Source of the DNA: Methanomicrobiales archaeon
GTDB lineage: Archaea; Halobacteriota; Methanomicrobia; Methanomicrobiales; Methanospirillaceae
Assembly (NCBI GenBank): GCA_012729535.1
Contig: JAAYCY010000044.1
Span: forward strand, 1-49,459
Reading direction: 5' to 3'
DNA: 49,459 nt
Shown here: positions 2,871 through 25,468 of the stretch, one piece after another
Layout: every line of letters starts with the position of its first letter
How positions within the stretch are numbered: the stretch's first letter is position 1
Position numbers and translations under genes: made by a program
Notes under the pieces: model-generated
Told to the model about the DNA's origin: nothing
The model's database searches: none
The model's input: only the letters and a program-made list of their open reading frames with translations

Positions 2871-5800
2871 TTAAATTCCCTCTAAAATTTCCCATACCTT
2901 TTTATAAATACCTCCCCTTTCTTTTCCAAGGGATGTAGACCATATCTCTTCATCCATGTTTCTAATAAAATTCCTTACAGAATGAATAGGTTGATCTAAC
3001 GAGTCTTCTATCGTGTGGGATAATGGGATTGCAGCAGCCCTTGGAATTCCAAGTAAACGAAGAGTTAATGCTGGTGTCTCATTTACTCCATAATAGACCT
3101 GTGAAGGGAAATTATTGAGATCTCTTTTTTGCTCATCATCCAAATTTCCCCCCAACATTGCAAATATCGCCCCAAGTCCCCAAGCCGCTGTTTGTGTTAG
3201 TTTTCCATACAATACCGTTCCACATTTCGTTATTGCAGTAGTTGAGTCGTTTCCTTCTTCCATGAAATATCTGGATGCGATTTCTGGAATCGATGAGCCA
3301 TTGACCCATTCTTTTAGTATTACCGCAAGATTCTCTTCATTATTTGGACGATTTAATGTAATTTCCTGGAAATTTTTGCGTAATTCAGGAACTTTTATTA
3401 GAACACCCATCAAATTTTGTAAAATTCGATTATCTTGGTTGAATAATGAATTTTGTAATACTAACGAAGGATTAATTCCTTGATTATGGATATTTTGTAA
3501 CACCGATTTAACGGTTTCTAGAGAAAATCCAGTAGTGTCAACTAATTTAAGTGGAAGATTTGGATTCTGAAGTTCGCGTGTATAATTATTGACCCCATCC
3601 AACAATTGATTGGCTAAACGAGAATCTTCTTTACGCAATTTCTCAAAGCCCAATGTACCTCTTAAAATTTGTTCGATTTCATTTGTATAATGTTCAGGGC
3701 GTCCCATTTGACGATAAGAATGAACAATGTACTGAACAAATGATGACCATTGTGGATCTTTATAGACTATCTGTCCTAAATTTGAAATATCGCCTCTTGT
3801 TTCGCGAACTAATGTTAATAATGCTGAATTAAGTTCCCCTGTTTGTTTATTTATAAATTCATGGAGCGAATTTACCCTTTCTTGATCTTGTGCAACCATA
3901 GCCACAATTCCAAGATTATTCTGATCAATCCTTCCTGCTCTTCCCACAATGTTCCAAAAATCTTCAGGGGGCATATCAATTCCATATGGATATTGATGTG
4001 ATGCCATCACAACGCCAGTTATTGGAAAGTTTACTCCCTGTGCAATAGTTGTTGTAGCAACAAGAAATTTTAGTTCATTGCATTCAAACAACCATTCCAT
4101 TAAAGCTCTTACATCATCTGACAATCCTGAGTGATGCACACCAATACCATAGGATAATAAATTAATTAATGAAAATTCAGACCCGAATTCAAAAGTAAGA
4201 AAATCCTGCACCAGTTTAATTTTTTCTGATACAAATGGGGACAAATTTTCTTCAATTTTTAACTTTTCTGCTAATCCCCAGACGAATTGGGGATTCATAT
4301 GCATAATAATTAATGGACCCCTTTTACTTAGCTGTTGTGCAGTTACAGCCGCAAGCGAGGTTTGATTAAGTACCTTACTATATGTTGGAGCGATTTTTTT
4401 ATTACTGTCCAATGGGAGATTATTTTCAATAAATAGTGTATTTTTTGTTGTTTGAACTAATTCCATCTCTAGTCTATAATCAAAACTTCTCTTATTAATT
4501 GCATCGCCTTTCTTTGCTTGAACAATTCCAATAATTCGATCATTGGGTTGCCAATCAAAAGAAAGACTAATGTCATCTGAATTAATTCCACCCAACCATT
4601 TGGATATTTCTTTACTATTTTGAATGAATGGAGTTAATAATAAAAATTGGGCTTTTTCACATTCGTTATTTATTGTAGCTAGTAATAGCTCAAGTTTTAA
4701 TCCCCGATTAACACTTTGGATATTATGAGCTTCATCAACAATTACTAGTGTTAATGGACGACCAATTTTCTCTTCCCAACCCTGACGTAGCATGAGGTCA
4801 AGTTTTTCAGGTGTAGTAACTAAAACACGAAACTTTTGTTCCTTCTCTTGTAGTAATTCCGCTTCAATATTATCTATGTCAAGGGCGGGACTTACTTGTT
4901 CAACTACAATATTAAGAGGTTCGAAATCCCTTCGAAGTCGTCTAGTAATTTGATTTACTAAAGTCCTAGTGGGAGCGATATAAGCAACCCATCCTTCATC
5001 ATAATCAAATTGATTTAATGCTTGTAAAATCCTAAATTGTGCAATAAGGGTTTTCCCACTTGAAGTAGGCAAACTGAGAACGATTGCTCTTCGGCTTGAT
5101 CCTAATAAGCCCTTTTCATATAATGTCTGACGTTGAGGTGGGAATACATCAAATATTGCACGGTTACCTCTACCTCGATTTACTAATTCTTCAACAAATT
5201 TCCTTACTTGAGAATTTACCGATCGCGTAACGGTCCAGATGGAATTATCTGCCATCTGACGTGAACAAGCCGTAAGAAGACGTGCTAAAGGTTCTAAATC
5301 AAGCAATTGAGAGTGCTCGCATATTGCTGAAATCCGGTCAAAATGTATTTCTAATAACTGATGAATTTGATATTTTCCATCAACAACACCATCCGTTATA
5401 TAAAGAGCGAGAACTTCTGCAGCTTTTGCTAAATGGTAAAGACCAATTAATTCAAAAGCTATTCCCTTAGCTAATATCGGATCTTGTCCTTTTAAAAATT
5501 GTGACTCTAATATTTCTTGCGAATTGCGTAACGAAGCAACTCGCTCAAGAACTAAATCTCTATCCTGCCAGCCTTCTTTTCTTATCAACCTCAACCAAAT
5601 ATCAATTATTGTAGACCAAGTCCTCTTTCCCCAATCCTCAGAATTGATAGGTAATTCAGGCCATCCCTCTTCTCGAAGAAGTCGAGCAGCATCTGCTCCC
5701 ATATCTCCCAATACTGCCAAAGAACTAGCACGGAGTATATTAATTGCATTTTCTAATGGATCATCAAATTGAGGCAAACTCCGAAATAGCCTAAATGCAT

Positions 5801-6029
5801 CAGATGCACAGGAACGCATCTCATTTAACTTCACAACATCAGAAAATGTGTTTTCTTCAGTTACAAGGTCGAGGACGACCATTTCTAATGTTTCAGCAGT
5901 ACTGCGAATTAGAGATATATCTTTGATAACAGGAGAGTCTTCAAATTCTTTAAATATCTGTATTTGATTTGCGAGTTTAATCGCTTGAGTTCTATTCTCT
6001 CCTAATACCTCAAGCAACCAATGTCCCAT
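2871..6029 (-). CDS. hamB: HamB-like DEAD/DEAH-box helicase of a Hachiman-type defence system
   Basis: Predicted ATP-dependent superfamily 2 helicase (Ski2-like) of 1052 residues, partner of the nuclease encoded just before it. Walker A is PTSSGKT near residue 322, motif Ia is APTRTLV, the DEAH box is VDEAHN near 431, the C-terminal RecA domain carries HHSGL and TTTIAQGVNFP, and motif VI is GRAGRI near 695. An N-terminal region of about 300 residues without clear motifs precedes the helicase core. The start is fixed by a strong AGGAGGT site in the 3' end of the upstream gene; the stop and start overlap by one base (TAATG), so translation is likely coupled. Length and pairing fit HamB. A stand-alone repair helicase is the alternative. 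Confidence 0.75.
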   Translation of the reverse strand: MGHWLLEVLGENRTQAIKLANQIQIFKEFEDSPVIKDISLIRSTAETLEMVVLDLVTEENTFSDVVKLNEMRSCASDAFRLFRSLPQFDDPLENAINILRASSLAVLGDMGADAARLLREEGWPELPINSEDWGKRTWSTIIDIWLRLIRKEGWQDRDLVLERVASLRNSQEILESQFLKGQDPILAKGIAFELIGLYHLAKAAEVLALYITDGVVDGKYQIHQLLEIHFDRISAICEHSQLLDLEPLARLLTACSRQMADNSIWTVTRSVNSQVRKFVEELVNRGRGNRAIFDVFPPQRQTLYEKGLLGSSRRAIVLSLPTSSGKTLIAQFRILQALNQFDYDEGWVAYIAPTRTLVNQITRRLRRDFEPLNIVVEQVSPALDIDNIEAELLQEKEQKFRVLVTTPEKLDLMLRQGWEEKIGRPLTLVIVDEAHNIQSVNRGLKLELLLATINNECEKAQFLLLTPFIQNSKEISKWLGGINSDDISLSFDWQPNDRIIGIVQAKKGDAINKRSFDYRLEMELVQTTKNTLFIENNLPLDSNKKIAPTYSKVLNQTSLAAVTAQQLSKRGPLIIMHMNPQFVWGLAEKLKIEENLSPFVSEKIKLVQDFLTFEFGSEFSLINLLSYGIGVHHSGLSDDVRALMEWLFECNELKFLVATTTIAQGVNFPITGVVMASHQYPYGIDMPPEDFWNIVGRAGRIDQNNLGIVAMVAQDQERVNSLHEFINKQTGELNSALLTLVRETRGDISNLGQIVYKDPQWSSFVQYIVHSYRQMGRPEHYTNEIEQILRGTLGFEKLRKEDSRLANQLLDGVNNYTRELQNPNLPLKLVDTTGFSLETVKSVLQNIHNQGINPSLVLQNSLFNQDNRILQNLMGVLIKVPELRKNFQEITLNRPNNEENLAVILKEWVNGSSIPEIASRYFMEEGNDSTTAITKCGTVLYGKLTQTAAWGLGAIFAMLGGNLDDEQKRDLNNFPSQVYYGVNETPALTLRLLGIPRAAAIPLSHTIEDSLDQPIHSVRNFIRNMDEEIWSTSLGKERGGIYKKVWEILEGI

Positions 6030-6820
6030 TATTGACCTCCTGATATCCTATTATAAAGATCAGAAATGCTGCATGGAAGATATATTGCTATTAAGAGGCA
6101 TGAAGTGGGATCATTAAGTTTTACAGATAGATCTTTTCCTCGGTTTTTAAGATCCTTGTGATTTGGTTTTGTATCTCTAATCAGAATTCCGAACAAAGAT
6201 ATGGCCTTATTTCCTGAATCTAAAAACTTCGTAACTGCAATTTTATAATAATTTTCGTAATTTGTCCCCTTACAGCGATGGTAGAGCCATTCTAATAATT
6301 TGTGAATTTTACCTAAATTATTAGCAAGTTCATCTATTTGGTGGATCATCCCACCTCGACCTTTCATTGCACCAGGAGGAGCGTTATCCTCGCTAGATGT
6401 TTTTACTTCACCAAGGACAAGACGTATTTCAGTAGAATTAATTTCAAAACCAACTAAATCTGCTCCAGGTAAACTGGCCTTAGGGTTTCTCTTGTCCCTC
6501 TCCATATTCCAAGGCCAAAAAATCCCATGTTTTTCTTTTAAATAAGCTTCAGCAATTGATTCTCCAATCGCCCATTCGCGTTCCTCATTGATTACTGCAT
6601 TTAAAATTTCATTGAGATTATCTTCAGCAAACCCAGTTGAAGCTAAACCATGTAAAAATGATTCAAAGTCCTCTTTTCCTTCTTTATCAAATAAGCGCGA
6701 AGAAACATCTTCTTTTAAAAAAGAATTAAAAGGATCTCCATCAAAAAAACTAGTTCCATACCAAGTAACTTGTTTTAATTGATCCTGATATTCTATTGTA
6801 AAATTTTCAGAATCAATCAT
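6029..6820 (-). CDS. hamA: HamA-like PD-(D/E)XK nuclease (DUF1837 type), Hachiman partner
   Basis: Predicted effector nuclease of a two-gene antiviral system. The 263-residue protein has a helical element GESIAEAYL (86-94), then PGADLVGFEI with the metal-binding Asp at 121, then LVLGEVKTS with Glu 138 and Lys 140. Together these form the D...ExK core of the restriction-endonuclease fold, and HamA/DUF1837 proteins share this order. It starts at ATG 6820 and overlaps the helicase gene by one base. In known Hachiman systems the helicase senses DNA damage or invasion and releases the nuclease; whether that holds here is inference. Family assignment rests on motifs, size and partner only. Confidence 0.72.
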   Translation of the reverse strand: MIDSENFTIEYQDQLKQVTWYGTSFFDGDPFNSFLKEDVSSRLFDKEGKEDFESFLHGLASTGFAEDNLNEILNAVINEEREWAIGESIAEAYLKEKHGIFWPWNMERDKRNPKASLPGADLVGFEINSTEIRLVLGEVKTSSEDNAPPGAMKGRGGMIHQIDELANNLGKIHKLLEWLYHRCKGTNYENYYKIAVTKFLDSGNKAISLFGILIRDTKPNHKDLKNRGKDLSVKLNDPTSCLLIAIYLPCSISDLYNRISGGQ

Positions 6821-8132: not shown

Positions 8133-9749
8133 ATGGATCAATCAGGACAGATTATCCTAAAAAATATCATCAATAATTATGGACCCACCATTTATCAAGA
8201 GAAAAAGAAGTTAGAAGCACTTATTAGAGATCTATTTCCTCAAGGATTTGTTCGAGAACGGAATGCCCTTATTATAACTGTGAAAGCGGGACTAATTGAG
8301 GATTATTTTGTAAAACAATCAATTGATTGCTCGTACTCGCAACTATTTCATTTATTAACAAACGAATATTGCCTTGATCCTCAATTATCGAATTGGGTCA
8401 TTCGTGCATGGCGGTATGCTTTAGGTGATGATTCATCAATCGAACCTCAAAATAAATTAACAATTGAAAAAAAAATTAAGGTCAATATTCATGAATTTAG
8501 AGAGTTGTCCCAATATGGAAGTTTTTTAACCAATTATATTTGGGTTAGCAATAATAACATAAATGTAATTCTTTCACTATTTGGTAATCATCAGTTTAAT
8601 TTTCACGAAATAAATCGCTTTAATGATCAAGAGAAATTTGAATTTCGTAGGTCTATAGAAATAGGAATGTTAGATGGTATTCAAAAATCAGATTTTATTC
8701 ATTATATACTTAATTTTGATATAAATAAAAAGGTTTTAAAAAAGGCAATTAATTTAAATTCAACTAAAAATATTTCCATTACCAAGGATTTCATTATTTC
8801 AGGGGGAAAAACACTCCGTAAGCTAATTATGACAAATGACCAGCCAGTTATAGATTGGTCTTTTAATTTGGTTGATGATTATGGTGCCATTACTCCCGCA
8901 GTAGGCGATTCATCACTAGTTACAGTATTATATAGCACTGAATGGGAACTTTTTAATTGGGATTATACAGAACCTAACCCTAGTATACCTACATATGAAC
9001 TGGTTAATCTCACTAAAAATGATGGAAAAATAATAAACCGATATTCAATTCCTTATGAAAATACTACAACATATTCTAATTTGTGTATAGGGGATGTTTT
9101 TTATTTAGATCATTGGAAATATAACCCATATCTTGTTCGAAACATTATTGCGATTAACATAAAAACCGGAAAAATACTCTGGGAAAGTGAATATATACCT
9201 CAGGGTAAGATAAATGATAAACCGTTTTTTGTTTACTCAAGTTCGATTATTACCGATAGAGAATTTCTATACTATTGTCTCGGAAAAAAAATTATTGTTC
9301 TAGATTGTATTACTGGAAATATTAAATGGGAACACATTCTTCCAGAAATGCCGGATGAATACTATTTCGGCTGTGAACAGCGAATATTAACTCACGATAA
9401 TAATATAATAATCGCAGGATCAGAAGAAATTTGGGCAATAGATAGGAAATCAGGGAATTTAATCTGGAATTATAAGGCAGAATATAAGGATGATCTTTCA
9501 GAATTTACATCAAATCCACTTATCTATAATGAAAAGATAATCATTGGTAGAGGTGATGGAGAGGTTGAAATTATGGATCCTTCGATTTACTGGGAATACT
9601 ATATAGATATAATCGACCTAAATACTGGATATGAATTATATAAAATAAAAATTGACTTCAAATTAGAAGGAAACCCGAGGATTGTTGGCAATAAATTGTA
9701 TTGCTGGAGTGAAGATTCTCTAATTGAGATTTCATTATTTTATGAATGA
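8133..9749 (+). CDS. Adaptor-domain protein with PQQ-like beta-propeller
   Basis: A 538-residue protein. Residues 1-105 form a helical domain ending in LSNWVIRAWRYALG that matches the N-terminus of the TPR protein (16159) and the C-terminus of the GTPase (13304). From about 215 onward come PQQ/WD-type blade repeats with the signatures INIKTGKILWE, LDCITGNIKWE, IDRKSGNLIWN and IDLNTGYELYK. There is no signal peptide or membrane segment, so it is probably cytoplasmic and unlikely to be a PQQ dehydrogenase; the propeller is more likely a binding or sensing platform. It is the first gene of the rightward cluster with kinase, vWA and phosphatase. Role as sensor or effector scaffold is inference. 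Gene is AT-rich like its neighbours. Confidence 0.75.
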   Translation: MDQSGQIILKNIINNYGPTIYQEKKKLEALIRDLFPQGFVRERNALIITVKAGLIEDYFVKQSIDCSYSQLFHLLTNEYCLDPQLSNWVIRAWRYALGDDSSIEPQNKLTIEKKIKVNIHEFRELSQYGSFLTNYIWVSNNNINVILSLFGNHQFNFHEINRFNDQEKFEFRRSIEIGMLDGIQKSDFIHYILNFDINKKVLKKAINLNSTKNISITKDFIISGGKTLRKLIMTNDQPVIDWSFNLVDDYGAITPAVGDSSLVTVLYSTEWELFNWDYTEPNPSIPTYELVNLTKNDGKIINRYSIPYENTTTYSNLCIGDVFYLDHWKYNPYLVRNIIAINIKTGKILWESEYIPQGKINDKPFFVYSSSIITDREFLYYCLGKKIIVLDCITGNIKWEHILPEMPDEYYFGCEQRILTHDNNIIIAGSEEIWAIDRKSGNLIWNYKAEYKDDLSEFTSNPLIYNEKIIIGRGDGEVEIMDPSIYWEYYIDIIDLNTGYELYKIKIDFKLEGNPRIVGNKLYCWSEDSLIEISLFYE

Positions 9750-9873
9750 AATTTAAAAGGGGGACTCGTAGCAAAAAATAGTTGACTGTTTTAATAAATA
9801 AATCTTATCTCAAAAAATTCATTATCAAAACATAATCACAAAATTCTTTAGCCTTTATTCTCCTACTCATGGT

Positions 9874-11196
9874 ATGCAATCAATTCTGAAACCTGGGCAG
9901 ACAATCAATTCTTCTTTGGGACACGAATATATTATTAAAAATTTTATTGGATCTGGAGGACAAGGAGAAGTCTACCAAGCAACAGGAAAAGGAAGGGATT
10001 GGGCAGTAAAATGGTATTTTTCTCATCAAGCAACAGATGAGCAGAAAAAAATATTAGAAAAATTAGTTGCTGATGGTGCTCCCAATAAAAATTTCTTATG
10101 GCCGTTAGAACTCTTATCAGTACATTCTATTAAAGGATATGGCTACATTATGCCATTACGAGAAAAACGATTTAAAAATATCGTTGATCTCATGAAAAAC
10201 CGGATAGATCCCTCTTTTTATACTCTTACCACTGCAGCATATCATTTAGTTGATAGTTATTATCAGCTCCATATGAGAGGGTTGTGTTATCGAGATATAT
10301 CATTTGGAAATGTTTTTTTTGATCCAAATACAGGAGAAGTCTTAATCTGTGATAATGATAATGTTTCGACTAATAATGTTAACATAAAATCATCCGTTCT
10401 TGGCACTCCCAGGTTTATGGCTCCTGAGATTGTAAGAGGAGAATTAATGCCAAGTACCAATACTGATTTGTTTTCATTGGCAATTCTACTCTTTTATCTT
10501 TTTCATATATCTCATCCATTAGAGGGCAAAAAAGAAACCGCAATTCATAGTTTTGATGCACCTGCAATGAAAAAAATATATGGAGATAATCCGATTTTTA
10601 TTTTTGACCCAAATAATATCTCAAATCGTCCAGATCCGGCAGTACATAAAAATGCTGAAATTTATTGGAAAATTTACCCCAATTTCTTCAAAGAATATTT
10701 TATTAAGTCTTTTACTACAGGACTAAGTGATCCACAACATGGAAGAGTTCGTGAGAGTGAGTGGAAAACTGCTCTACTAAAATTACGGAATAGTATTACC
10801 TTATGTCCAAATTGTAAGAGCGAAAATTTCTTTAATCTGCAATCTTCAGGCACTAATTCAACATTGATGAAATGTTGGAATTGTAATACTTCACTATCTT
10901 GTGATTACAAAATTTCTATTGAAAATAATGTAATTTTATTGAATAGGGGTTCGAAATTGGTTCGGGCACACATAGATCCGTCATCCTCAAATATTGATGA
11001 AATAATTGGTGAAATTAGTGTCCATCCATCTGATCCCCGCATACTGGGAATTAAAAACGTTACTGCAAAAAAATGGCTTGCAACTAAACCAGACAATTCA
11101 CTAATTGAGGTAGAACCAGGTAAAAATATAAAAATTAGTGATGGATTAAAAATAGATTTTGGTAATGCCAAAGGAATAATCGAAAGGGTTATTTAA
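9874..11196 (+). CDS. Ser/Thr protein kinase with zinc ribbon and FHA-like tail (TerY-P triad kinase)
   Basis: Predicted to phosphorylate proteins in a TerY-P signalling triad. Of 440 residues, the glycine loop is GSGGQGEVY (26-34), the ATP-binding Lys is in AVKWYF (46), the catalytic loop is YRDISFGNV (Asp 141) and CDND (159-162) replaces DFG; APE is at 183-185. A zinc ribbon follows with CPNC (311-314) and CWNC (334-337). The last 90 residues are beta-rich, with VHPSDPRILGIKN and a final PGKNIKISDGLKIDFG, and resemble a forkhead-associated domain, which binds phosphothreonine. The kinase, zinc ribbon and FHA-like order is known from triad kinases beside vWA and PP2C genes, exactly the neighbours here. 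Confidence 0.85.
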   Translation: MQSILKPGQTINSSLGHEYIIKNFIGSGGQGEVYQATGKGRDWAVKWYFSHQATDEQKKILEKLVADGAPNKNFLWPLELLSVHSIKGYGYIMPLREKRFKNIVDLMKNRIDPSFYTLTTAAYHLVDSYYQLHMRGLCYRDISFGNVFFDPNTGEVLICDNDNVSTNNVNIKSSVLGTPRFMAPEIVRGELMPSTNTDLFSLAILLFYLFHISHPLEGKKETAIHSFDAPAMKKIYGDNPIFIFDPNNISNRPDPAVHKNAEIYWKIYPNFFKEYFIKSFTTGLSDPQHGRVRESEWKTALLKLRNSITLCPNCKSENFFNLQSSGTNSTLMKCWNCNTSLSCDYKISIENNVILLNRGSKLVRAHIDPSSSNIDEIIGEISVHPSDPRILGIKNVTAKKWLATKPDNSLIEVEPGKNIKISDGLKIDFGNAKGIIERVI

Positions 11197-11221
11197 ATAA
11201 AAAAGGGAAATAGGAATAACT

Positions 11222-11920
11222 ATGGCAAATAGACCTGGTGGAGAATTAGCAACAAGACCTCTTCATTTCATCTGGATATGTGACTGCTCTGGATCAATGG
11301 CTGGAGATAAAATATCAGCACTTAATACTGCAATTAAAGAAGCTTACCCAGCTATGAAAGACGCTGCCGAACAAAATCCAAATGCACAAGTTTTAGTTAG
11401 AGCCTTAAAATTCTCAAATAGTGCAGAATGGGTTGTTGAAGCACCAACACCTGTTGAGGACTTTAAATGGATTGATTTAGATGCAGATGGAGTAACGGAT
11501 ATGGGTAAAGCTCTTTCTTTAGTTGCAGACCAATTAAAAATCCCCCCTATGAGTGATAGAGCACTCCCCCCGGTTCTGGTACTAATTTCAGACGGACAAC
11601 CAACGGATGATTTTGATTCAGGACTGAGTAAACTAATGGGCCAACCATGGGGTAAAAGAGCAGTAAGAATCTCGATTGCAGTTGGAAAAGATGCAGATAA
11701 GGAAGTACTAGCAAAATTTATTGGAAACGTAGAATTGAAACCGATTGAGACAAACAATGCACCTGAACTTGTCCGACAAATTCGATGGGTTTCGACTGCA
11801 GTTCTTAAGGCAGCATCGCAACCGCCAAGTCAAACACCTGATCAAAAATTGTCTTCAAATGTACCTTTACCGCCGCCATTAGAGCCAATGAATGATGCAG
11901 ATATTCATGATGTATGGTGA
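11222..11920 (+). CDS. terY: TerY-type von Willebrand factor A protein
   Basis: A 232-residue vWA protein, the metal-binding member of a TerY-P triad. The MIDAS motif DCSGS is at 21-25, followed by a conserved Thr in GVTDMG and an Asp in LISDGQPTDD. The vWA domain fills residues about 15-195; a short Pro-rich tail with PPSQTPDQK and PLPPPLEP ends the protein. Full TerY proteins often carry a C-terminal TerY-C zinc domain. That domain is missing here and appears instead as a separate gene at 12837-13217. No signal peptide is seen, so it is cytoplasmic. It starts 25 bases after the kinase gene and is probably cotranscribed; it likely docks kinase and phosphatase partners. Confidence 0.85.
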   Translation: MANRPGGELATRPLHFIWICDCSGSMAGDKISALNTAIKEAYPAMKDAAEQNPNAQVLVRALKFSNSAEWVVEAPTPVEDFKWIDLDADGVTDMGKALSLVADQLKIPPMSDRALPPVLVLISDGQPTDDFDSGLSKLMGQPWGKRAVRISIAVGKDADKEVLAKFIGNVELKPIETNNAPELVRQIRWVSTAVLKAASQPPSQTPDQKLSSNVPLPPPLEPMNDADIHDVW

Positions 11921-11938
11921 TTTTCGATATTGAATAAT

Positions 11939-12829
11939 ATGACATGGGGTCTTATTGGAGCAAGTATTCAAGGCTACTCTCACTTAAGGTCTAATAAAAA
12001 AAATCAAGATTCATTCAATATTTTTCCTAATGAGCCAATTACCCCTCCCCCAATTATTTTTGCTCTTTCTGATGGCCATGGTGGTGAGAAATACTATCGT
12101 AGTGATATTGGGTCTAAATTGGCGGTTGAGAGCGCAATAGAAATATTAACGGAATTTACTAAATCACCTCTCATTGAGGAAATTAATACTGAAAATATTG
12201 AGGAGATGAACAAAAAAATAAAGAATACGGTCTGTCTAGATATTGTTAAAAATTGGAGAAAAAAAGTAGCTTCTCAAGAAAATCCCGAAGATATCAAAGG
12301 GGATTTTAATAGTATTCAAAGAGAGAAAAATCGACCATCTATAGTTGATAAACAGTTGGAACCATATGGCTCAACTTTACTCATTGCAGTCATCTGTACA
12401 AATTGCGGAATTTTTATTCAATTGGGTGATGGAGATATTCTATTTTTATCTGGGAAAAACCAAGTAGAACGCCCAATTCCTAAAGATGAGAATTTAATTG
12501 CCAACGAAACGTATTCTTTGTGTCTCCCTGGAGCTGAGCATTACTTTAAAGTGAACTGTATTTTATTTGGCAATAAAAATGAAATAGATAATTCAAGTGA
12601 TCCATCGTTAATAATGTTATCAACGGATGGGTATTCGAATTCCTATACTTCTGATGAAAATTTTGAAAAAGTTCTTATTGATCTATCAAAAATAATTTTT
12701 GAAAATCCTGAAGGATTACAAAGCGGAATAAAAAATATTAAAGATAATTTAGAATCATGGTTACAGGAGACTAGTAAATTAGGAAGCGGAGATGATATCA
12801 CAGTTGGGCTTATGGTAAATTTGAATTAA
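11939..12829 (+). CDS. PP2C-family Ser/Thr protein phosphatase
   Basis: Predicted metal-dependent phosphatase that reverses the kinase of the same cluster. Signature blocks in the 296-residue product are KNQDSFNIF near the N-terminus, ALSDGHGG, GSTLLIAVIC, GDGDILFLS, LSTDGYSNS and the terminal GSGDDITVGLM; the acidic residues in these blocks bind the two catalytic metals. I chose ATG 11939; a TTG at 11930 would add only three residues. It lies 18 bases after the vWA gene on the same strand, completing the kinase-vWA-phosphatase triad. About 50 extra residues with charged KKIKNTVCLDIVKNWRKK sit between the second and third blocks. Function is well supported by motifs; the substrate is unknown. 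Confidence 0.88.
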   Translation: MTWGLIGASIQGYSHLRSNKKNQDSFNIFPNEPITPPPIIFALSDGHGGEKYYRSDIGSKLAVESAIEILTEFTKSPLIEEINTENIEEMNKKIKNTVCLDIVKNWRKKVASQENPEDIKGDFNSIQREKNRPSIVDKQLEPYGSTLLIAVICTNCGIFIQLGDGDILFLSGKNQVERPIPKDENLIANETYSLCLPGAEHYFKVNCILFGNKNEIDNSSDPSLIMLSTDGYSNSYTSDENFEKVLIDLSKIIFENPEGLQSGIKNIKDNLESWLQETSKLGSGDDITVGLMVNLN

Positions 12830-16158: not shown

Positions 16159-17880
16159 ATGACTGAAGATCAATGTGTGTTAATCCTGCGTGAGCTTATA
16201 GAGCAGTACGGTTTCCCCTCTTCTGAAGAACCCACCCGAAATAAAAACCTCTTACGAGATTTCTTTGGTAAATATCCCCGCGAGATGAACCTCCTGATTA
16301 CTGGGTTAGAGGAAGATATTCCAGGACAACTTCATGCAAAAAGAGGAACGGAGCTGTATCAATTTGGTTACGGTCACATAATTAAACGGTTACAGACAGT
16401 CAGGGGGATTGATCAACAAGCTGCAATGTGGATTGTTAAAACCTGGGCTTGTGCAATGGGCTGTGATGTTATTGATGTTCAAAAAACAGAAAACGCCATT
16501 AACCTGACCGATCAAATAGCAGGGACGACTATAAAAAGTGTATTACATAGTATTGAGGAAGGTCGCCTTAAGAATGATACGGAGGATGCTGGCTTCTGGA
16601 ATGATAAGGGTCTTAACTTACAAAACCTTGACAGATATGACGAGGCGATAGAAGCGTATGAACAAGCCTTGAAGATAGATCCGGAATCTGATTGGGCATG
16701 GTATGGGAAGGGTTATTCTTTAAGAGAAATTGGTAAACCTGAAGATGCAATAATTGCATTAGACAACTGCTTAAGAATTAATCCTAATTTTAAGGAAGCA
16801 TGGGCTAACAAAGGGAGTGCTCTCAATGATCTTGATAGAAATAAAGAGGCAATAAAAGCTTATGATACCGCAATTAAGGTGGATCCAAATTATTCAATTG
16901 CATGGGATTGGAGAAGTTATGCACTTCTATGTCTCAATAAACCCCATGATGCATTAAATTCTGCTGAAAAAGCGATCCAAATTGATTCTAATTATGCAAA
17001 CCCTTGGGAAAATAAAGCGCAAGCCTTGTTAAAAATAGGCAAAGAAGATGAGGCAATGCAAGCATTTGATCGTGCTATTCAAATTGATCCAAATTTTTCC
17101 AGAGCTAGTAATAACAAGGGGATTGCCTTATTTCGTCTTGGCAGATATAACGAGGCGGTTGAAGCGTATGAACAGGCCCTGAAGATTGATCCAAGATCTA
17201 CTTGGGCATGGTTAGGAAAGGGTCTTGCCTTACAAAACCTTGGTAGGTATAAGGAGGCGATTGAAGCGTATGAGCAGGCCCTGAAGATTAATCCGGAAAA
17301 TACAGTGGCATGGCATAGTAAGGGTCTTGCCTTACAAAACCTTGGTAGGTATAAGGAGGCGATTGAAGCAGATGAACAGGCCCTGAAGATTGATCCGGGT
17401 ATGGAAGCAGCATGGCATAGCAAGGGGGATGCCTTATTACGTCTTGGTCGATTTAACGAAGCGATTGAAGTATACGAACAGAGCGTAAAGATTAATCCGG
17501 CAGATGCTTTGGCATGGCAGGGCAAAGGGGCTGCTTTACTTCGTCTCGGTCGATATAACGAAGCGGTTGCATCATACGAACAGGGCCTGAAGATTGAACG
17601 GGATTATTACTGGGCATGGTTAGGAAAGGGTCTTGCCTTACAAAACCTTGGTAGGTATAAGGAGGCGATTGAAGCGTATGAGCAGGCCCTGAAGATTGAT
17701 CCAGGAAAGGCTGAGGCATGGTATAGCAAGGGGATCGCTTTACATGAACTTGGCCGCTATGATGAGGCGATTGAAGCGTATGAACAAGCTCTGAAAATTG
17801 ATCCCGGATTTACAAAGGCAAAAGATAAACGAGAGATAACCTTAAAGAAAAAAAACTCGTTTTGGAATAAATTTTTTTAA
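16159..17880 (+). CDS. Adaptor-domain protein with about twelve TPR repeats
   Basis: A 573-residue protein. The first 110 residues form the same adaptor domain as the propeller and GTPase proteins, with NLLRDFFGKYPREMNLLI and AAMWIVKTWACAMG. From about residue 140 run roughly twelve 34-residue TPRs of the AWxxKGxALxxLGRYxEAIEAYEQALKIDP type, a superhelical protein-binding scaffold. I chose ATG 16159 because it begins the conserved domain; TTG codons at 16144 and 16147 are alternatives close to a GAAGG element. Several repeats are nearly identical in DNA, so the array has expanded recently. It ends the rightward cluster, 107 bases after the GTPase, and probably recruits targets. Cytoplasmic, no signal peptide. 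Confidence 0.8.
   Translation: MTEDQCVLILRELIEQYGFPSSEEPTRNKNLLRDFFGKYPREMNLLITGLEEDIPGQLHAKRGTELYQFGYGHIIKRLQTVRGIDQQAAMWIVKTWACAMGCDVIDVQKTENAINLTDQIAGTTIKSVLHSIEEGRLKNDTEDAGFWNDKGLNLQNLDRYDEAIEAYEQALKIDPESDWAWYGKGYSLREIGKPEDAIIALDNCLRINPNFKEAWANKGSALNDLDRNKEAIKAYDTAIKVDPNYSIAWDWRSYALLCLNKPHDALNSAEKAIQIDSNYANPWENKAQALLKIGKEDEAMQAFDRAIQIDPNFSRASNNKGIALFRLGRYNEAVEAYEQALKIDPRSTWAWLGKGLALQNLGRYKEAIEAYEQALKINPENTVAWHSKGLALQNLGRYKEAIEADEQALKIDPGMEAAWHSKGDALLRLGRFNEAIEVYEQSVKINPADALAWQGKGAALLRLGRYNEAVASYEQGLKIERDYYWAWLGKGLALQNLGRYKEAIEAYEQALKIDPGKAEAWYSKGIALHELGRYDEAIEAYEQALKIDPGFTKAKDKREITLKKKNSFWNKFF
17110..17810 (+). repeat. Near-identical 102-base units inside the TPR gene
   Basis: The string GGTCTTGCCTTACAAAACC with its downstream context recurs at about 17220, 17322 and 17628, spaced by multiples of 102 bases, which is one TPR. 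Flanking repeats are more diverged. This is recent tandem duplication or gene conversion and would allow copy number to change by recombination. Confidence 0.8.
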
Positions 17881-18994: not shown

Positions 18995-21900
18995 TCATAC
19001 GGTCGCCTCTGTCTGTTTCTGTTCCCGGGAATAACAGACTTTACAGATCTTCTGTTTTGTCTCCGGATCCACCCAGGTAGCAGCCCCGGTATTACAGACA
19101 TCACACCGGCCCAGATCTTTGTTTGCCAGGATCATAGTCCCGGTATTCAATAGACCTGGAAGGGCGGTAAAGGACCAGCACTTTCTGGCAACCGCCTTAC
19201 TGTAACATTTCTGGCAGATTTTATGAGTGAACCGTCCTTCTTCCTTCTGTTTTTGCGAGAACTTCTCAGTATATTGGATCCACTTCCCACCACACACAGC
19301 ACAGGGACCGGACCACACTCCATTGATAGGGTGGAAGTCATCCGGGTCAAGATCTGTTAGCGGAAGATCCCCCTGTTTCGCGGAAGTGAGCGGATCATCT
19401 CCGCTAATGGGGGAAGCCTCTGTTTCGTTATTGCTCTTCGATATGTTCGTAGATGAATTCTGATCAGATCTGTTCGCGGATAAGCGGAAGGTTTCAGGTG
19501 CAGAGGTATAGGCGACAGTGGGTTCGTGTGTGCTCTGTACATTCTCCTCTTTCCGCGTATACTCAGTCTCTAAGTTAGTAAGAGAGTTATTTTGAATTTC
19601 ACTCTCATTCTGACTTCCATTTGTTAGCGGAATACTTCCGCTAACGTTCCGCGAACTTCCGCTAATTCCGCTAACATTGTCATCATCAGGATCATCATCA
19701 GACCCATCAGATCCCTCATCCAACCAGCACCCTCCGCCAGAGATCCATGATTCGTATTGATGGCGGTTCCAGGTGTACACCTTCTGCCTCTTGGACACTC
19801 CATCTGAAGTTGAGTCAGTCCGGTCCAGGTACGAGATAGCCGGGCACTTTTCGAGAAGTCCATCATAGTGAATCTGATGACTGCTCCCACCGTGAAGGAT
19901 CTTTTTGATAGCATTGTAGGATTTTTTTCGCGGGTGTGTGAGATCGATAAGTTCCTCCATCGTGAACTCTGTTCTACCGGATGCGTGCATCTGAACTGCG
20001 AGAGCTGCTTCGCCCCTGGTCAGCTTAGACGCCTGACTTCCACACTCCCCGTTCAATGCCAGGTATATCTCACAAGCCTTACGGAAGTCATCGGTCGTCG
20101 CATAGATAACATCTCTTCCCCGAACACGGTTCCTCTCTCGCTGATACTGGTAGAGAGCGGCAACCGACTTGATGAGGTCAAGGAGCATCCCCGGATTTCT
20201 CCGGTTGGCTGATGATGAGAACCGGATCCGCTTCGCGTATGGAATAACCACATGAACCGGTGTCAGCTGATTCCAGATGTGATGACACACAACCGTCTCA
20301 AACCTCAGGTCATCCTCATCGGCTGGAAGTAATGCCGCCGCTTCCAATTCCCTTTCAAGAACCTTATCATCCTGTTCCTGGCTGTCATCGATCCAACAGG
20401 TGAGCATCCTGTTCCACACCTGATCGTCTCCGGACCCTTCCACCTTCGCAACCCACCAGACACACCGTTCAGGAATAATGCATGTCTGACCTTTCCGGTC
20501 CTTGTTGACCGTCCGGTAGATGAACGGTTTCTTAAAAGAGGTCGTGACTCCCTTCAGCGTCTCCTGCATCTGATCTGAAAGTCCCACATCGTCCAGGCAT
20601 ATTGCGGATCCTGCTCTGATATCCTCTGCATAAAAGAGGGCCTTGTCTGACAGTCGCCCACCAAGCCGGAACTCCTGGGGAATGTGCGTGAGCATCGTGT
20701 CAAAGGTGTGACTCTTCCCCTTGCCTGAGTCACCGGTCACCAGAACATGCAGCCCGTTTGAGTTGATCACAGATCGGGATGCGAATGACATGATGAGACA
20801 CCGGGCCACAATGTCATCCCCCTCATGATCCATCTTGAACGAGTTCAGGATGTATTCAGCCGGGTTTCCTTCACGAAGGATCCGCGCTGCCTCAGCGGTA
20901 TGGTCTATCGGTATGATGTCAATAGATTGATCTGAACTCTTCGGAATTTCCGAAACGTTCCCATAATACTCGGCCTTCGCTTCCGCCTTACTCCGTGCAT
21001 CCTGTTTCCTCTTCTGGTCAAACTCCTCGGCGGTCATCTGGCTCGGTCGTCGCTTCGCTCCTCCCTCGCGGCACCCCTCGAACATCTCCCGGAGTTCTTT
21101 CCATCGCTGCTCTCCTCCTCCACAGGAATTATGATGACAGCCAGCGAATATTGCCCCACTCACGAATTGGATCGCATACGCTCCGTCTTTATGAGCGCCG
21201 GAGAAGGGACACTCATCTAAGACAAAGAGCCGACCACCAGAGTACGGTTTCTCTTCGTATCCGATTCCGTGTGAACTGAGCCAGTCGCCCAGGTCGATAT
21301 TACTGGTGCCACTATTCCCACCAGTAGCATTACTCCCACTTTTCTTACTCTCATCACCCGTCATCAGGGATGCAAGGAGCATCAGGTCTGACACTTTAAC
21401 CGGAATGAGGTCTTCCGGATGTTCGAGAATTTCAGATCGCCGGTGCGGGCGGTCCTCGGTATTGTCTCCCTTTCTGGATACCGTCCCGTAAAGTTTCCAG
21501 ATACGTGAGGCGTTATGGTTCGCAATATCCACTGATGATCGCGCATCGGTGAAAAACTGCGAGAGGGTTGTCAGACAATCCTTCACCAGTTGGGTAGCCT
21601 CGGCATCATTCGGTAGATCAATCCGGTAAAGGAGGTGCGCTCCGTTTCCAGAGTCGGCGAGAATGGGAACCGGCCATCCCATCTCAGAAAGAAATCCCCT
21701 GATCTTCTTCGCCTTGGTCAGAGCTTCCTCATGTTCCTCGTTCGAGGAGGAGATCCCTGATGGCCGTGTCGGATCGATATCAACCGGCAACCACCTCCGC
21801 CGGGTGATGTCCTGGTCAGAAGTCGAGGCGTCGGTCTTCCCCTGTTTTGATATCCGGTTCACCTTCCGGGCGAGGAGTGCAGGGTTCACCGGGTTCAGTG

Positions 21901-22078
21901 TGAAGTATATCCCCTTGAACTGGGGGGTTGAGTCCAGGGCTTCTGCATCAGCGGCGAGCCTGTCAATGTCATTGTAGTACCCGGAGAATGTCCCCGTGTC
22001 CGAGAGTGCCCGGACCTCTACGACCTGACCTGGAGCAAACAGGAATTCACATGACCCCCGGATCTGTTCCTTACTCAT
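18995..22078 (-). CDS. Primase-helicase replication protein of an integrated element
   Basis: Predicted replication initiator of 1027 residues. A primase-like domain has the metal site VDIDPTRP (about 99-106), SGNGAHLLYRI and ASRIWKLYGTVSRKG, as in archaeo-eukaryotic primase families of plasmids and viruses. A Cys/His segment (CPFSGAHKDG, CHHNSC) follows. The helicase part has Walker A GDSGKGKS (about 443), Walker B ICLDDVG (about 494) and KPFIYRTVNKDRKGQ, and is of the D5/MCM-like AAA+ kind. A Ser/Asn-rich linker then leads to two C-terminal zinc fingers (CAVCGG...CQKCY and CDVCNT...CKVCY). ATG 22078 overlaps the previous gene by 8 bases; an upstream start at 22150 lies inside that gene. Confidence 0.85.
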   Translation of the reverse strand: MSKEQIRGSCEFLFAPGQVVEVRALSDTGTFSGYYNDIDRLAADAEALDSTPQFKGIYFTLNPVNPALLARKVNRISKQGKTDASTSDQDITRRRWLPVDIDPTRPSGISSSNEEHEEALTKAKKIRGFLSEMGWPVPILADSGNGAHLLYRIDLPNDAEATQLVKDCLTTLSQFFTDARSSVDIANHNASRIWKLYGTVSRKGDNTEDRPHRRSEILEHPEDLIPVKVSDLMLLASLMTGDESKKSGSNATGGNSGTSNIDLGDWLSSHGIGYEEKPYSGGRLFVLDECPFSGAHKDGAYAIQFVSGAIFAGCHHNSCGGGEQRWKELREMFEGCREGGAKRRPSQMTAEEFDQKRKQDARSKAEAKAEYYGNVSEIPKSSDQSIDIIPIDHTAEAARILREGNPAEYILNSFKMDHEGDDIVARCLIMSFASRSVINSNGLHVLVTGDSGKGKSHTFDTMLTHIPQEFRLGGRLSDKALFYAEDIRAGSAICLDDVGLSDQMQETLKGVTTSFKKPFIYRTVNKDRKGQTCIIPERCVWWVAKVEGSGDDQVWNRMLTCWIDDSQEQDDKVLERELEAAALLPADEDDLRFETVVCHHIWNQLTPVHVVIPYAKRIRFSSSANRRNPGMLLDLIKSVAALYQYQRERNRVRGRDVIYATTDDFRKACEIYLALNGECGSQASKLTRGEAALAVQMHASGRTEFTMEELIDLTHPRKKSYNAIKKILHGGSSHQIHYDGLLEKCPAISYLDRTDSTSDGVSKRQKVYTWNRHQYESWISGGGCWLDEGSDGSDDDPDDDNVSGISGSSRNVSGSIPLTNGSQNESEIQNNSLTNLETEYTRKEENVQSTHEPTVAYTSAPETFRLSANRSDQNSSTNISKSNNETEASPISGDDPLTSAKQGDLPLTDLDPDDFHPINGVWSGPCAVCGGKWIQYTEKFSQKQKEEGRFTHKICQKCYSKAVARKCWSFTALPGLLNTGTMILANKDLGRCDVCNTGAATWVDPETKQKICKVCYSREQKQTEATV
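19356..19675. repeat. Iteron-like repeat cluster (TTCCGCKAAC) within the primase-helicase gene
   Basis: About ten copies of TTCCGCTAAC or its complement occur in 320 bases. A perfect inverted pair has 10-bp arms GTTAGCGGAA (19623-19632) and TTCCGCTAAC (19636-19645). It is followed by head-to-tail copies TTCCGCGAAC (19647-19656), TTCCGCTAA (19657-19665) and TTCCGCTAAC (19666-19675). Looser copies lie at 19356, 19377, 19400, 19472 and 19481. They sit in the part of the gene that encodes a low-complexity linker, so DNA function may be what is conserved, for example a replication origin. Confidence 0.6.
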
Positions 22079-22292
22079 GAGATGACTCCCAATCCTCAGC
22101 GCGCCTCTTCCATCCGACCGCTGCAAATTCCTGTAACTTCTCGTTTGCAACGGTGTTTGTGGCCATAACTTCAGACAATTTCAGAGCGCATTTTTCACAC
22201 TGATAATACCCGACCTTATGAGAGCCCCCACATTTTTCGAGCTTAAACACCGCCCGGCCTGCACACCGTGGGCACGAATTCACATCATTCAT
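22071..22292 (-). CDS. Lar-like zinc ribbon protein
   Basis: A 73-residue protein with CPRCAG at 7-12 and CEKC at about 32-35, then an Ala-rich helix and a terminal GWKRRAED. This CPxC...CxxC...WxRR layout is that of the Lar (restriction alleviation)/DUF family of small phage and plasmid zinc proteins. Its start overlaps the stop of the gene before it by ATGA, and its end overlaps the primase start. Restriction alleviation is a guess from family resemblance. Confidence 0.65.
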   Translation of the reverse strand: MNDVNSCPRCAGRAVFKLEKCGGSHKVGYYQCEKCALKLSEVMATNTVANEKLQEFAAVGWKRRAEDWESSHE

Positions 22293-22993: not shown

Positions 22994-23258
22994 AATGCAC
23001 CCCCGTCTGCTTTTGAATGATCCATACCCGTGCGGCAGGTTTCTTTCCGGTCTGGTTTAACAGGGGGAACCGCTGGTTCATGATTTGAGAGACGACGTCG
23101 CCCCGGGTCCGTTCACCATGCCGGATCATCGCTGGAAATGAGAGTGGATTTTCCCCTATGGTGTCAACAATACAATTTCGCGAAATCAGACTCTGACCGG
23201 ATGACTCAATAAAGGTGAGGACTTCCGCAGTCTCCAGAGCGTTTGGTTTCCGGGTCAT
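22980..23258 (-). CDS. Small element protein, possible winged-helix DNA binder
   Basis: A 92-residue product from ATG 23258, which overlaps the previous gene's stop by ATGA. The segment ALETAEVLTFIESSGQSLIS, then FPAMIRHGERTRGDVVSQIMNQ, is helix-rich and followed by ARVWIIQ, a layout that could be a winged helix-turn-helix. That fold is a guess. Starts upstream of 23258 lie deep within the previous gene. Confidence 0.5.
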   Translation of the reverse strand: MTRKPNALETAEVLTFIESSGQSLISRNCIVDTIGENPLSFPAMIRHGERTRGDVVSQIMNQRFPLLNQTGKKPAARVWIIQKQTGVHCATC

Positions 23259-23626
23259 GCGGGTACCCCTCCATGAGCCGGAGATATGTCCCATTGCTCT
23301 ATGGGCGAAGCTCCACCGGTTGTTACCCTCCACCGTGACCAACCAGGACGACGATACACCCAGAGCTGTACATCGCCGGGGGCCGGTAACGTGGTGATCA
23401 TTTTTGATATGGCCTGGATGTAATCCCTAAAAGCGGAAAGCTTTGCCTGTCTGGATGAGCGAACACAGATACAGAGAGTGCGGCCAGTTCGCCATGCGAT
23501 GATATCGAATATCTTCGGATAGGTAGACACTCGCTCAGCATGATACCCAGCGTTTTGCAAAATATCCATTGCCTCATAGACAGCAGATCGTTCGACTTTG
23601 CCGGGGTTGATCAAACTGACCACCAC
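23255..23626 (-). CDS. Degenerate nuclease-fold (Hjc/PD-(D/E)XK-like) element protein
   Basis: A 123-residue product with a GTG start at 23626. Helix AVYEAMDILQNAGYHAERVS is followed by KIFDIIAWRTGRTLCICVRSSRQ, which resembles the strand pair of small restriction-endonuclease-fold proteins (DxxAW...xxIQVK), but the usual ExK is replaced by CICVRS. It then has VQLWVYRRPGWSRWRV. It may bind DNA without cutting it, or use other residues. It overlaps genes at both ends in the leftward operon. Family placement is tentative. Confidence 0.5.
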   Translation of the reverse strand: MVVSLINPGKVERSAVYEAMDILQNAGYHAERVSTYPKIFDIIAWRTGRTLCICVRSSRQAKLSAFRDYIQAISKMITTLPAPGDVQLWVYRRPGWSRWRVTTGGASPIEQWDISPAHGGVPA

Positions 23627-23991: not shown

Positions 23992-25224
23992 TTAAAGTGG
24001 TTCTACTATTGGCTGATCGCCGCCATTTGCTTTCCGTTCCTGTAAATACTCCACTAACAAATCGGAATTATTTAATATGAATTGGTGGAATGCTTCGCTA
24101 GAGTGTATTGCATTCTCACTGAGTGCATGGCCGCAAATATGGCAGTGATGTGAGACAGGGCTGTTTATTTCCTTACAATAGGCACAGATTTTTGGTTCAA
24201 GTTTTTCAATAGATGCCTGCGGCGAGGTTTCCATACCATACAGTTTGAACATCTCCCGATCAACGTCCGACCCGGTTAGATGGGCGTAGTTAATAAACAT
24301 ACGAGATTCGATAGTCCCCCACATCATCATTTTCACAACCGATTCATTTACGCCCTGTTGAAGGAGGTGAGTAATCCGGGAATGCCTGAAAATGTGTGGA
24401 GTAATGTGTTTGGTTATCTTGGCAAGTTTCGCGGTCCGATTTACTAATTTCGCGATAGTCGCGTATGATAATGGGGTCCCCTTTTCTGTCACGAATACGT
24501 AATTTTCATCAGAATATTCGAGAGGGTATTCGCTGCGCCAGGTAATCACATGCTCACGAGCAAGAACAAGCCGGACATACCGGTGCTTATCGGTTTTAAA
24601 AATGACATGAACGATTAAACCGGCGTTGTCAACCTGGATATCCCGCCATTTCATCTGACCGATTTCCCCGGCTCTGAATCCGCCTTCATACAGCATCATC
24701 AGAATGGCCCGGTTTCGGGTATAGGTGCAAGCGGCGAGCATGGCTTCAACCTCCTGGACCGATAAGATGTCGGCGGCGTCCTTGGTGGCTACCTTTTTGG
24801 GAACCTTAATCGCCTGAATCTTTTTTTCCGGAACGTTCTGAAGATACCCGTTTTCTATCATCCACAAGGTGAACGCCTTCAGGATGAGAATTAAGTCGCC
24901 CCTGGTATTTTGGGCGTATTCTCCTCCGGTCCGTGGGCCGCCGCTTTGTATCCGGCTGATCCCCTGATAGATGTCCAGGTAGGTATTTTCTGCATATGGG
25001 CCGAGAAATCGTCGGCAGGAAATGAGAGATGAAACAATTTTGTGAACACGCTTGGCTTTTATCCCATTCGTGATGGTCCGCTCATAGACGTACTCAAGAA
25101 TGAGTTCCTTATCTCGCTGATTTATTTCCCCGGCTTTTAAAGCGAGCTCAAATGATTTCTCGGGTGTATCAGACTTTCTCGAATGGAAACGGTCGTTTTC
25201 ACCGTTCACTGGAATCAAGGGCAT
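23992..25224 (-). CDS. Tyrosine recombinase (integrase) with C-terminal zinc ribbon
   Basis: Predicted site-specific integrase that inserted the element into the adjacent tRNA gene. In 410 residues the catalytic set is Arg 184 (GGFRAGEI), His 277 and Arg 280 (HIFRHSR), Trp 302 in the fifth position and nucleophile Tyr 313 (INYAHL), with an N-terminal SAM-like core-binding domain at about 25-135. The tail has CAYC (347-350) and CHIC (361-364), a zinc ribbon seen in many euryarchaeal integrases. It starts 60 bases from the 3' end of the tRNA gene. No zinc or catalytic residue is missing, so it may still be active. Confidence 0.9.
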   Translation of the reverse strand: MPLIPVNGENDRFHSRKSDTPEKSFELALKAGEINQRDKELILEYVYERTITNGIKAKRVHKIVSSLISCRRFLGPYAENTYLDIYQGISRIQSGGPRTGGEYAQNTRGDLILILKAFTLWMIENGYLQNVPEKKIQAIKVPKKVATKDAADILSVQEVEAMLAACTYTRNRAILMMLYEGGFRAGEIGQMKWRDIQVDNAGLIVHVIFKTDKHRYVRLVLAREHVITWRSEYPLEYSDENYVFVTEKGTPLSYATIAKLVNRTAKLAKITKHITPHIFRHSRITHLLQQGVNESVVKMMMWGTIESRMFINYAHLTGSDVDREMFKLYGMETSPQASIEKLEPKICAYCKEINSPVSHHCHICGHALSENAIHSSEAFHQFILNNSDLLVEYLQERKANGGDQPIVEPL

Positions 25225-25284
25225 GCACTAAACCTCATCCCCTTTATAAATAAAATAGCGTAGGGATCCGGACAAAATGTCCAA

Positions 25285-25374
25285 TGCTGTTGACGGGATC
25301 CGAACCCGCGACCTCCAGATATCTCAGTCATAAACTTATGAGTCTGGCGCCCTAACCAGCTAGGCCACAACAGC
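25285..25374 (-). tRNA. tRNA-Met (CAT, elongator-like) with a 16-nt intron
   Basis: Read on the minus strand, GCTGTTG pairs with CAACAGC (acceptor), GCCT with GGGC (D stem), CCAGA with TCTGG (anticodon stem) and GCGGG with CCCGT (T stem, loop TTCGGAT). Anticodon CAT lies at 25340-25338. Between loop positions 37 and 38 is a 16-base intron (25321-25336). CTCA pairs with TGAG to make a 4-bp helix flanked by 3-base bulges TAA and ATA, the canonical archaeal splice motif. CCA is not encoded. Initiator and Ile2 identities are less likely but not excluded. It is the probable attachment site of the element. Confidence 0.93.
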
Positions 25375-25468
25375 ACAAATTGCATTATAAGAAAGTCGTC
25401 TAAATTGATAAATCTGACGATCTAATGGATCAGTAGTCCTGATGAAATAGAAAAGAAAGATCTGAATC

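Follow-up and report, generated by a model that had tools for sequence, protein, structure and literature searches.

A mirror-symmetric repeat array, and probable replication origin, within an archaeal primase-helicase gene

Why should the coding sequence of a replication protein contain many copies of a short DNA motif? The gene in question encodes a primase-helicase and lies in a 49,459-nucleotide stretch of DNA from a Methanomicrobiales archaeon (contig JAAYCY010000044.1), hereafter the window. The original prediction was that iteron-like copies of TTCCGCKAAC, in the part of the gene that encodes a linker, may mark a replication origin or a site of self-regulation. A Ser/Asn-rich peptide repeat was named as the alternative.

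A repeat array in the primase-helicase gene

The protein comprises, in order, primase (AEP) motifs, a P-loop ATPase, a winged-helix HTH domain, a low-complexity linker and C-terminal paired cysteines. It matched no model in Pfam or NCBIfam. The AEP motifs DID (residues 124-126) and SGNGxH (residues 167-172) are invariant across seven homologs. The same is true of the P-loop (G473-K479), the Asp pair D520-D521 and the paired cysteines C950/C953/C979/C982 and C1016/C1019/C1036/C1039. Similarity to most relatives starts at residue 25. The TTG start at 22150 is thus probably wrong, and translation probably begins at the ATG at 22078. The AlphaFold model of the full-length protein is poor (pLDDT 51). 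For the linker, pLDDT was below 50 at residues 810-926, consistent with the low complexity originally ascribed to it.

Allowing up to one mismatch, TTCCGCKAAC matches the window 13 times; 3.4 matches are expected, and none of 100 shuffles reached 13. Eight of these matches fall within 19356-19675. Refinement of the motif gave twelve TTCCGCKAA sites spanning ~320 bp (Table 1), and an unsupervised scan of the whole locus recovered the same cluster at 19357-19674. Hence, the predicted cluster is real, and larger than had been claimed. The perfect inverted pair of 23 bases, GTTAGCGGAA-TAC-TTCCGCTAAC, is also exactly as described (19623-19645). Head-to-tail copies do occur, but they number four rather than three. 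They start at 19636, 19647, 19657 and 19666, with spacings of 11, 10 and 9, and the third has one mismatch. A head-to-tail reading covers only half of the arrangement, because the whole array is a dyad. Its layout is mirror-symmetric: [4 + 1 opposed] - single - single - [1 opposed + 4]. Outer block B has a degenerate slot where a site is expected (19367-19375), and inner site B, the second of the two, is doubled.

Table 1. Features of the locus, in window coordinates (a point in the strand column marks features assigned to neither strand)
Feature	Position	Strand	Remarks
Primase-helicase (putative initiator) gene	18995..22150	-	1051 aa from TTG
C-terminal region, two paired-cysteine (zinc-ribbon-like) motifs	19016..19321	-	
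Linker-coding segment, disordered	19322..19735	-	residues 806-943
Winged-helix HTH domain, proposed repeat reader	19742..20035	-	residues 706-803; from AlphaFold fragment, weak PDB matches and motif-divergence tracking
Whole 12-site dyad array, proposed origin	19357..19674	.	centre near 19515
Site 1, TTCCGCTAA	19666..19674	+	outer block A
Site 2, TTCCGCTAA	19657..19665	+	outer block A
Site 3, TTCCGCGAA	19647..19655	+	outer block A
Site 4, TTCCGCTAA	19636..19644	+	outer block A; right arm of 23-base inverted pair
Site 5, TTCCGCTAA, opposed	19624..19632	-	block A; left arm of 23-base inverted pair
Site 6, TTCCGCGTA	19551..19559	+	inner single A
Site 7, TTCCGCTTA	19481..19489	-	inner single B, one of a pair
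Site 8, ATCCGCGAA	19473..19481	-	inner single B; mirror partner of site 6
Site 9, CTCCGCTAA, opposed	19399..19407	+	outer block B
Site 10, ATCCGCTCA	19387..19395	-	outer block B
Site 11, TTCCGCGAA	19377..19385	-	outer block B
Site 12, TTCCGCTAA	19357..19365	-	outer block B
AT-rich patch, proposed DNA-unwinding element	19560..19623	.	67% AT; gene 48%
Small ORF, weak Holliday-junction-resolvase match	23255..23626	-	E=0.0027
Tyrosine recombinase (integrase)	23992..25224	-	PF00589 E=1.2e-28
tRNA gene beside integrase	25284..25375	-	likely attachment side of element

Layout and motifs across the gene family

The named relatives of the protein belong to Methanospirillum and other Methanomicrobiales. 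Homologs were found in 66 of the 101 genomes searched, often with 8-12 matches per genome, and the host genome has nine. We compared the window gene with 80 genes fetched from Methanospirillum and related Methanomicrobiales (81 in total). At 45 of the 81 loci, an unsupervised scan of the whole locus placed the densest repeat cluster in the linker. A set of 57 loci was drawn from these homologs, with seed motifs chosen by hand from the preceding scans, and at least eight sites were present in 44 of them. The motifs are private to each lineage (TTCCGCC, TCCCGCTC, TGCACAT, TGCAGAAAA and TGCTGAAA are among them), and mostly differ between co-resident elements of one genome. Conversely, the layout is constant. 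The pitch within blocks is 9-11 bp, the outermost and inner sites are 116 bp apart on both sides, and 76 bp separate the inner sites. A histogram of site orientation over the 44 arrays is a mirror image.

A fixed template of the layout gave p<=0.01 against synonymous shuffles in 37 of 66 long-linker homologs. Among those that failed are decayed genes and motifs to which the template is poorly suited; as a fixed 7-mer, it overlooks arrays whose spacing differs or whose motif is weaker, such as TGCAGAAAA. An orientation-scramble control is uninformative where the motif is nearly palindromic (TGCACAT and TGCATAG are examples). A clear array is absent from about a quarter to a third of homologs, some of which are decayed. 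At one locus (L091, G007:C272) the reading frame stops within the array, the sites are well kept, and the array outlasts the protein frame.

The linker is short (50-100 aa) in one Methanospirillum clade. In most members of this clade, an array of the same layout lies in non-coding DNA that has no shared ORF, 0.4-2.5 kb past the downstream end of the gene. On a tree of the primase-to-HTH part, the move out of the gene is a single relocation. Hence, the array is a DNA element that can be separated from the protein.

Base composition follows the layout. Over 31 arrays, AT content is highest (73%, compared with 44% in the gene body) at ~60 bp from the centre of the dyad, in the interval that separates the first inner site from the first outer block. 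An unwinding element would be expected to show just this kind of asymmetric patch in a constant position.

The divergence of the motifs points to a candidate reader. Motif distance tracked the distance between HTH cores better than that of any other domain (Mantel 0.39), a link that we take as support rather than proof because Mantel tests remove shared ancestry incompletely. The partial correlation was 0.27-0.31 with the primase, helicase, post-helicase or zinc region controlled for, and 0 of 500 permutations were as high. After controlling for the winged-helix HTH, distances for the helicase, post-helicase and zinc regions retained almost no signal; the primase domain kept a small partial correlation (0.17). 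An AlphaFold model of residues 655-815 has a mean pLDDT of 83 and a confident winged-helix fold. Its best PDB matches are mostly winged-helix proteins, but they are weak, with none at E<=0.001.

In two separate lineages with TCCCGC-type motifs, the recognition helix is followed by the residues SYG; at this position, others have SHG, SKG or SRG. The SYG set consists of L082, L083, L065, L071, L066, L072, L051, L055 and L078, with L061 as the one exception. Possibly, SYG at this position is a recognition rule for TCCCGC-type motifs.

Candidate functions of the array

From sequence comparison, we consider it quite probable that a small archaeal integrative element replicates from this array, which lies within the stretch of the element's initiator gene that encodes the linker and would be read by the HTH domain. 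Two observations favour an origin: the layout persists although the motif changes, and one clade has its array beyond the limits of the gene. The combination of primase, P-loop motifs and winged-helix HTH in one protein, with an integrase nearby, was also counted in its favour, as were the mostly different motifs of co-resident elements. In the proposed mechanism, the winged-helix domain, just N-terminal to the linker, would bind the twelve sites. With five sites in its outer block and a sixth, inner site ~75 bp off, each half of the dyad could accommodate six subunits. These would load two opposed primase-helicase assemblies; we infer both numbers, six and two, from the layout. Opening of the DNA would occur at the AT-rich patch within the first outer block, and after excision of the element the primase domain would begin synthesis. 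Several results weigh against this reading: the homologs that have no clear array, the small correlation kept by the primase domain, and searches that turned up no circular contig, left attachment site or full-length plasmid or phage relative (see below). The skew profile of the window has no switch at the array, which says little because the neighbouring genes of the element are all on one strand.

On balance, we lean towards a broader reading, in which the dyad of 12 sites has a fixed geometry throughout a family of archaeal origins. The recognition sequence would be rewritten in concert, at all sites and in the HTH core, giving many replicons in one genome that are distinct from each other. 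The origin would ancestrally have been in the gene and have moved out once. If so, a widespread and unstudied family of archaeal integrative elements gains a predicted origin. There would be dozens of natural pairs of initiator HTH and DNA motif from which to derive recognition rules, and an origin and a protein linker would be evolving under two codes at once. With a fixed layout and a changing motif, the number and order of loaded initiators would be directly testable.

An array bound by the initiator could instead serve copy control, autoregulation or handcuffing without being the start site itself. Plasmid iterons often do both, and the mostly distinct motifs of co-resident elements also speak for this explanation. 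However, the array was not found on the promoter side; it invariably occupies the 3' portion of the gene or lies 0.4-2.5 kb further on. In addition, the AT-rich patch at a fixed slot fits unwinding better. We regard this explanation as unlikely. Thus, of the two functions first proposed, the origin is favoured by the family-wide layout and the array outside the gene, and promoter self-regulation becomes less likely because of where the array lies. Partition sites also show repeat arrays at fixed spacing, and a centromere-like or pairing site might be read by the same HTH domain. This seems more doubtful still, since the reader would be part of a primase-helicase and no partition ATPase was recognised in the small set of adjoining genes.

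A Ser/Asn-rich peptide repeat, with the DNA repeat as a by-product, would agree with the low complexity of the linker. However, the sites lie in both orientations and in several reading frames. In the window they occupy five of the six combinations of frame and orientation, and hence encode different peptides (VSG, SRN, IPLTN, LSAN and DPLTS). At least four of the six combinations are used in 35 of 40 intragenic arrays. Synonymous reshuffling also loses the sites. When codons were replaced by synonyms drawn from the same gene, the layout score, 12 slots in the window, averaged 4.4 and never exceeded 7 (100 trials). A k-mer test that ignores layout counted 11 sites, compared with 4.6 after reshuffling.

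Conservation was measured in 15 pairs of homologs. Third codon positions were identical in 88% of cases within sites, a value inflated because sites were picked by motif match, in 71% for the rest of the linker and in 65% for the gene core. The corresponding amino acid identities were 77%, 59% and 83%. Linker DNA outside the sites is free of this bias and still changes more slowly than core third positions. Repeats are therefore kept while amino acids vary, which was the check suggested with the original prediction. Since the same layout also occurs in non-coding DNA of relatives, we rule out the peptide repeat, to which we assign a negligible probability. Chance or recent local duplication is equally implausible and likewise ruled out: the motif is short and one homolog (L112) does seem to show tandem duplication, but the slot layout recurs with unrelated motif sequences across genera and families, and linkers score 8.3 on average against 4.1 and 4.3 for upstream parts of the same genes.

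The surrounding element and comparable systems

Upstream of the primase-helicase gene are an integrase gene and a tRNA gene (Table 1). In another genome, the same tRNA likewise has related integrase DNA beside it. A left attachment site, sought as a direct repeat of the end of the tRNA, was found neither in the window nor in the genome. None of the short contigs fetched was circular. Searches of plasmid, phage and viral collections gave no full-length relative, only partial distant matches or none.

Excerpts of Makarova 2014 (PMC4158269) describe arCOG07809, a protein with primase, helicase, HTH and zinc finger that is encoded in small integrated archaeal islands, near an integrase and a nuclease. 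Mpal_2033 of Methanosphaerula palustris is an example, and the elements were proposed to be satellite viruses. The window protein likewise combines these four domains; of the two neighbours, its integrase match is clear and its nuclease match weak. The window gene very probably belongs to this family. The excerpts describe no origin or repeat array for arCOG07809. By name, the family had PMC4158269 as its sole full-text match among open-licence papers, and no published origin was found there.

Origins within initiator genes are already known from phages. In phage lambda, iterons and an AT-rich tract lie mid gene O, in the initiator's own coding sequence (PMC7466680). There are four iterons, or six in some relatives, and additional iterons simply add protein residues (PMC7466680). 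The window shares with lambdoid origins both repeats inside the coding sequence, here putative initiator sites, and an adjacent AT-rich tract. Unlike lambda, it has ~12 sites arranged as a dyad. Its putative initiator combines primase and helicase in one protein, whereas that of lambda relies on the host helicase (PMC7466680). Moreover, the window protein, lacking any Pfam or NCBIfam match, has none to lambda O. By analogy, the array would work like a lambdoid origin but is not one. The new features are that the sites form a dyad, that each lineage has its own motif and that the protein is a primase-helicase from an archaeon.

SaPI Rep and SCCmec Cch2 are helicase-initiators whose C-terminal domain binds short repeats beside their own gene, perhaps as two hexamers, as proposed in excerpts of PMC7581432. 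These origins resemble the short-linker clade with its array downstream. However, the repeats are outside the gene, the proteins differ, and a 5-1-1-5 dyad is not described in those excerpts. The pRN1 protein ORF904 of Sulfolobus is an archaeal primase-helicase with a winged helix and an origin beside its own gene, a 100-bp stem-loop downstream that is said to be without iterons (PMC4234260). The window differs in having a repeat array inside the gene and in its arCOG. Classic iteron plasmid origins have direct repeats in one orientation; the window array is mirror-symmetric.

Other repeats occur near homologs. Direct repeats with a regular period of 61-81 bp, resembling CRISPR arrays, lie near the primase-helicase genes of L061 (gene-relative 3739-4200), L101 (-2319 to -1769) and L115 (-2208 to -1720). 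Upstream of the L118 homolog, 16 TGGGGGGG-like units form a run (gene-relative -516 to -396).

Elsewhere in the window, a DEAD-box helicase gene (2871-6820, minus strand) matches PADLOC PDC-M23B (E=0) and, less strongly, Hachiman HamB. It adjoins a DNA methylase gene (1162-2514), and directly upstream is an unassigned 263-aa ORF; helicase and ORF are a candidate anti-phage defence pair. Genes for a PQQ-repeat protein, a Ser/Thr protein kinase, a VWA protein and a PP2C phosphatase cluster in low-GC DNA at 8133-12829 (plus strand). Finally, a TPR gene at 16601-17818 contains 102-bp tandem DNA repeats that correspond to exact 34-residue units.
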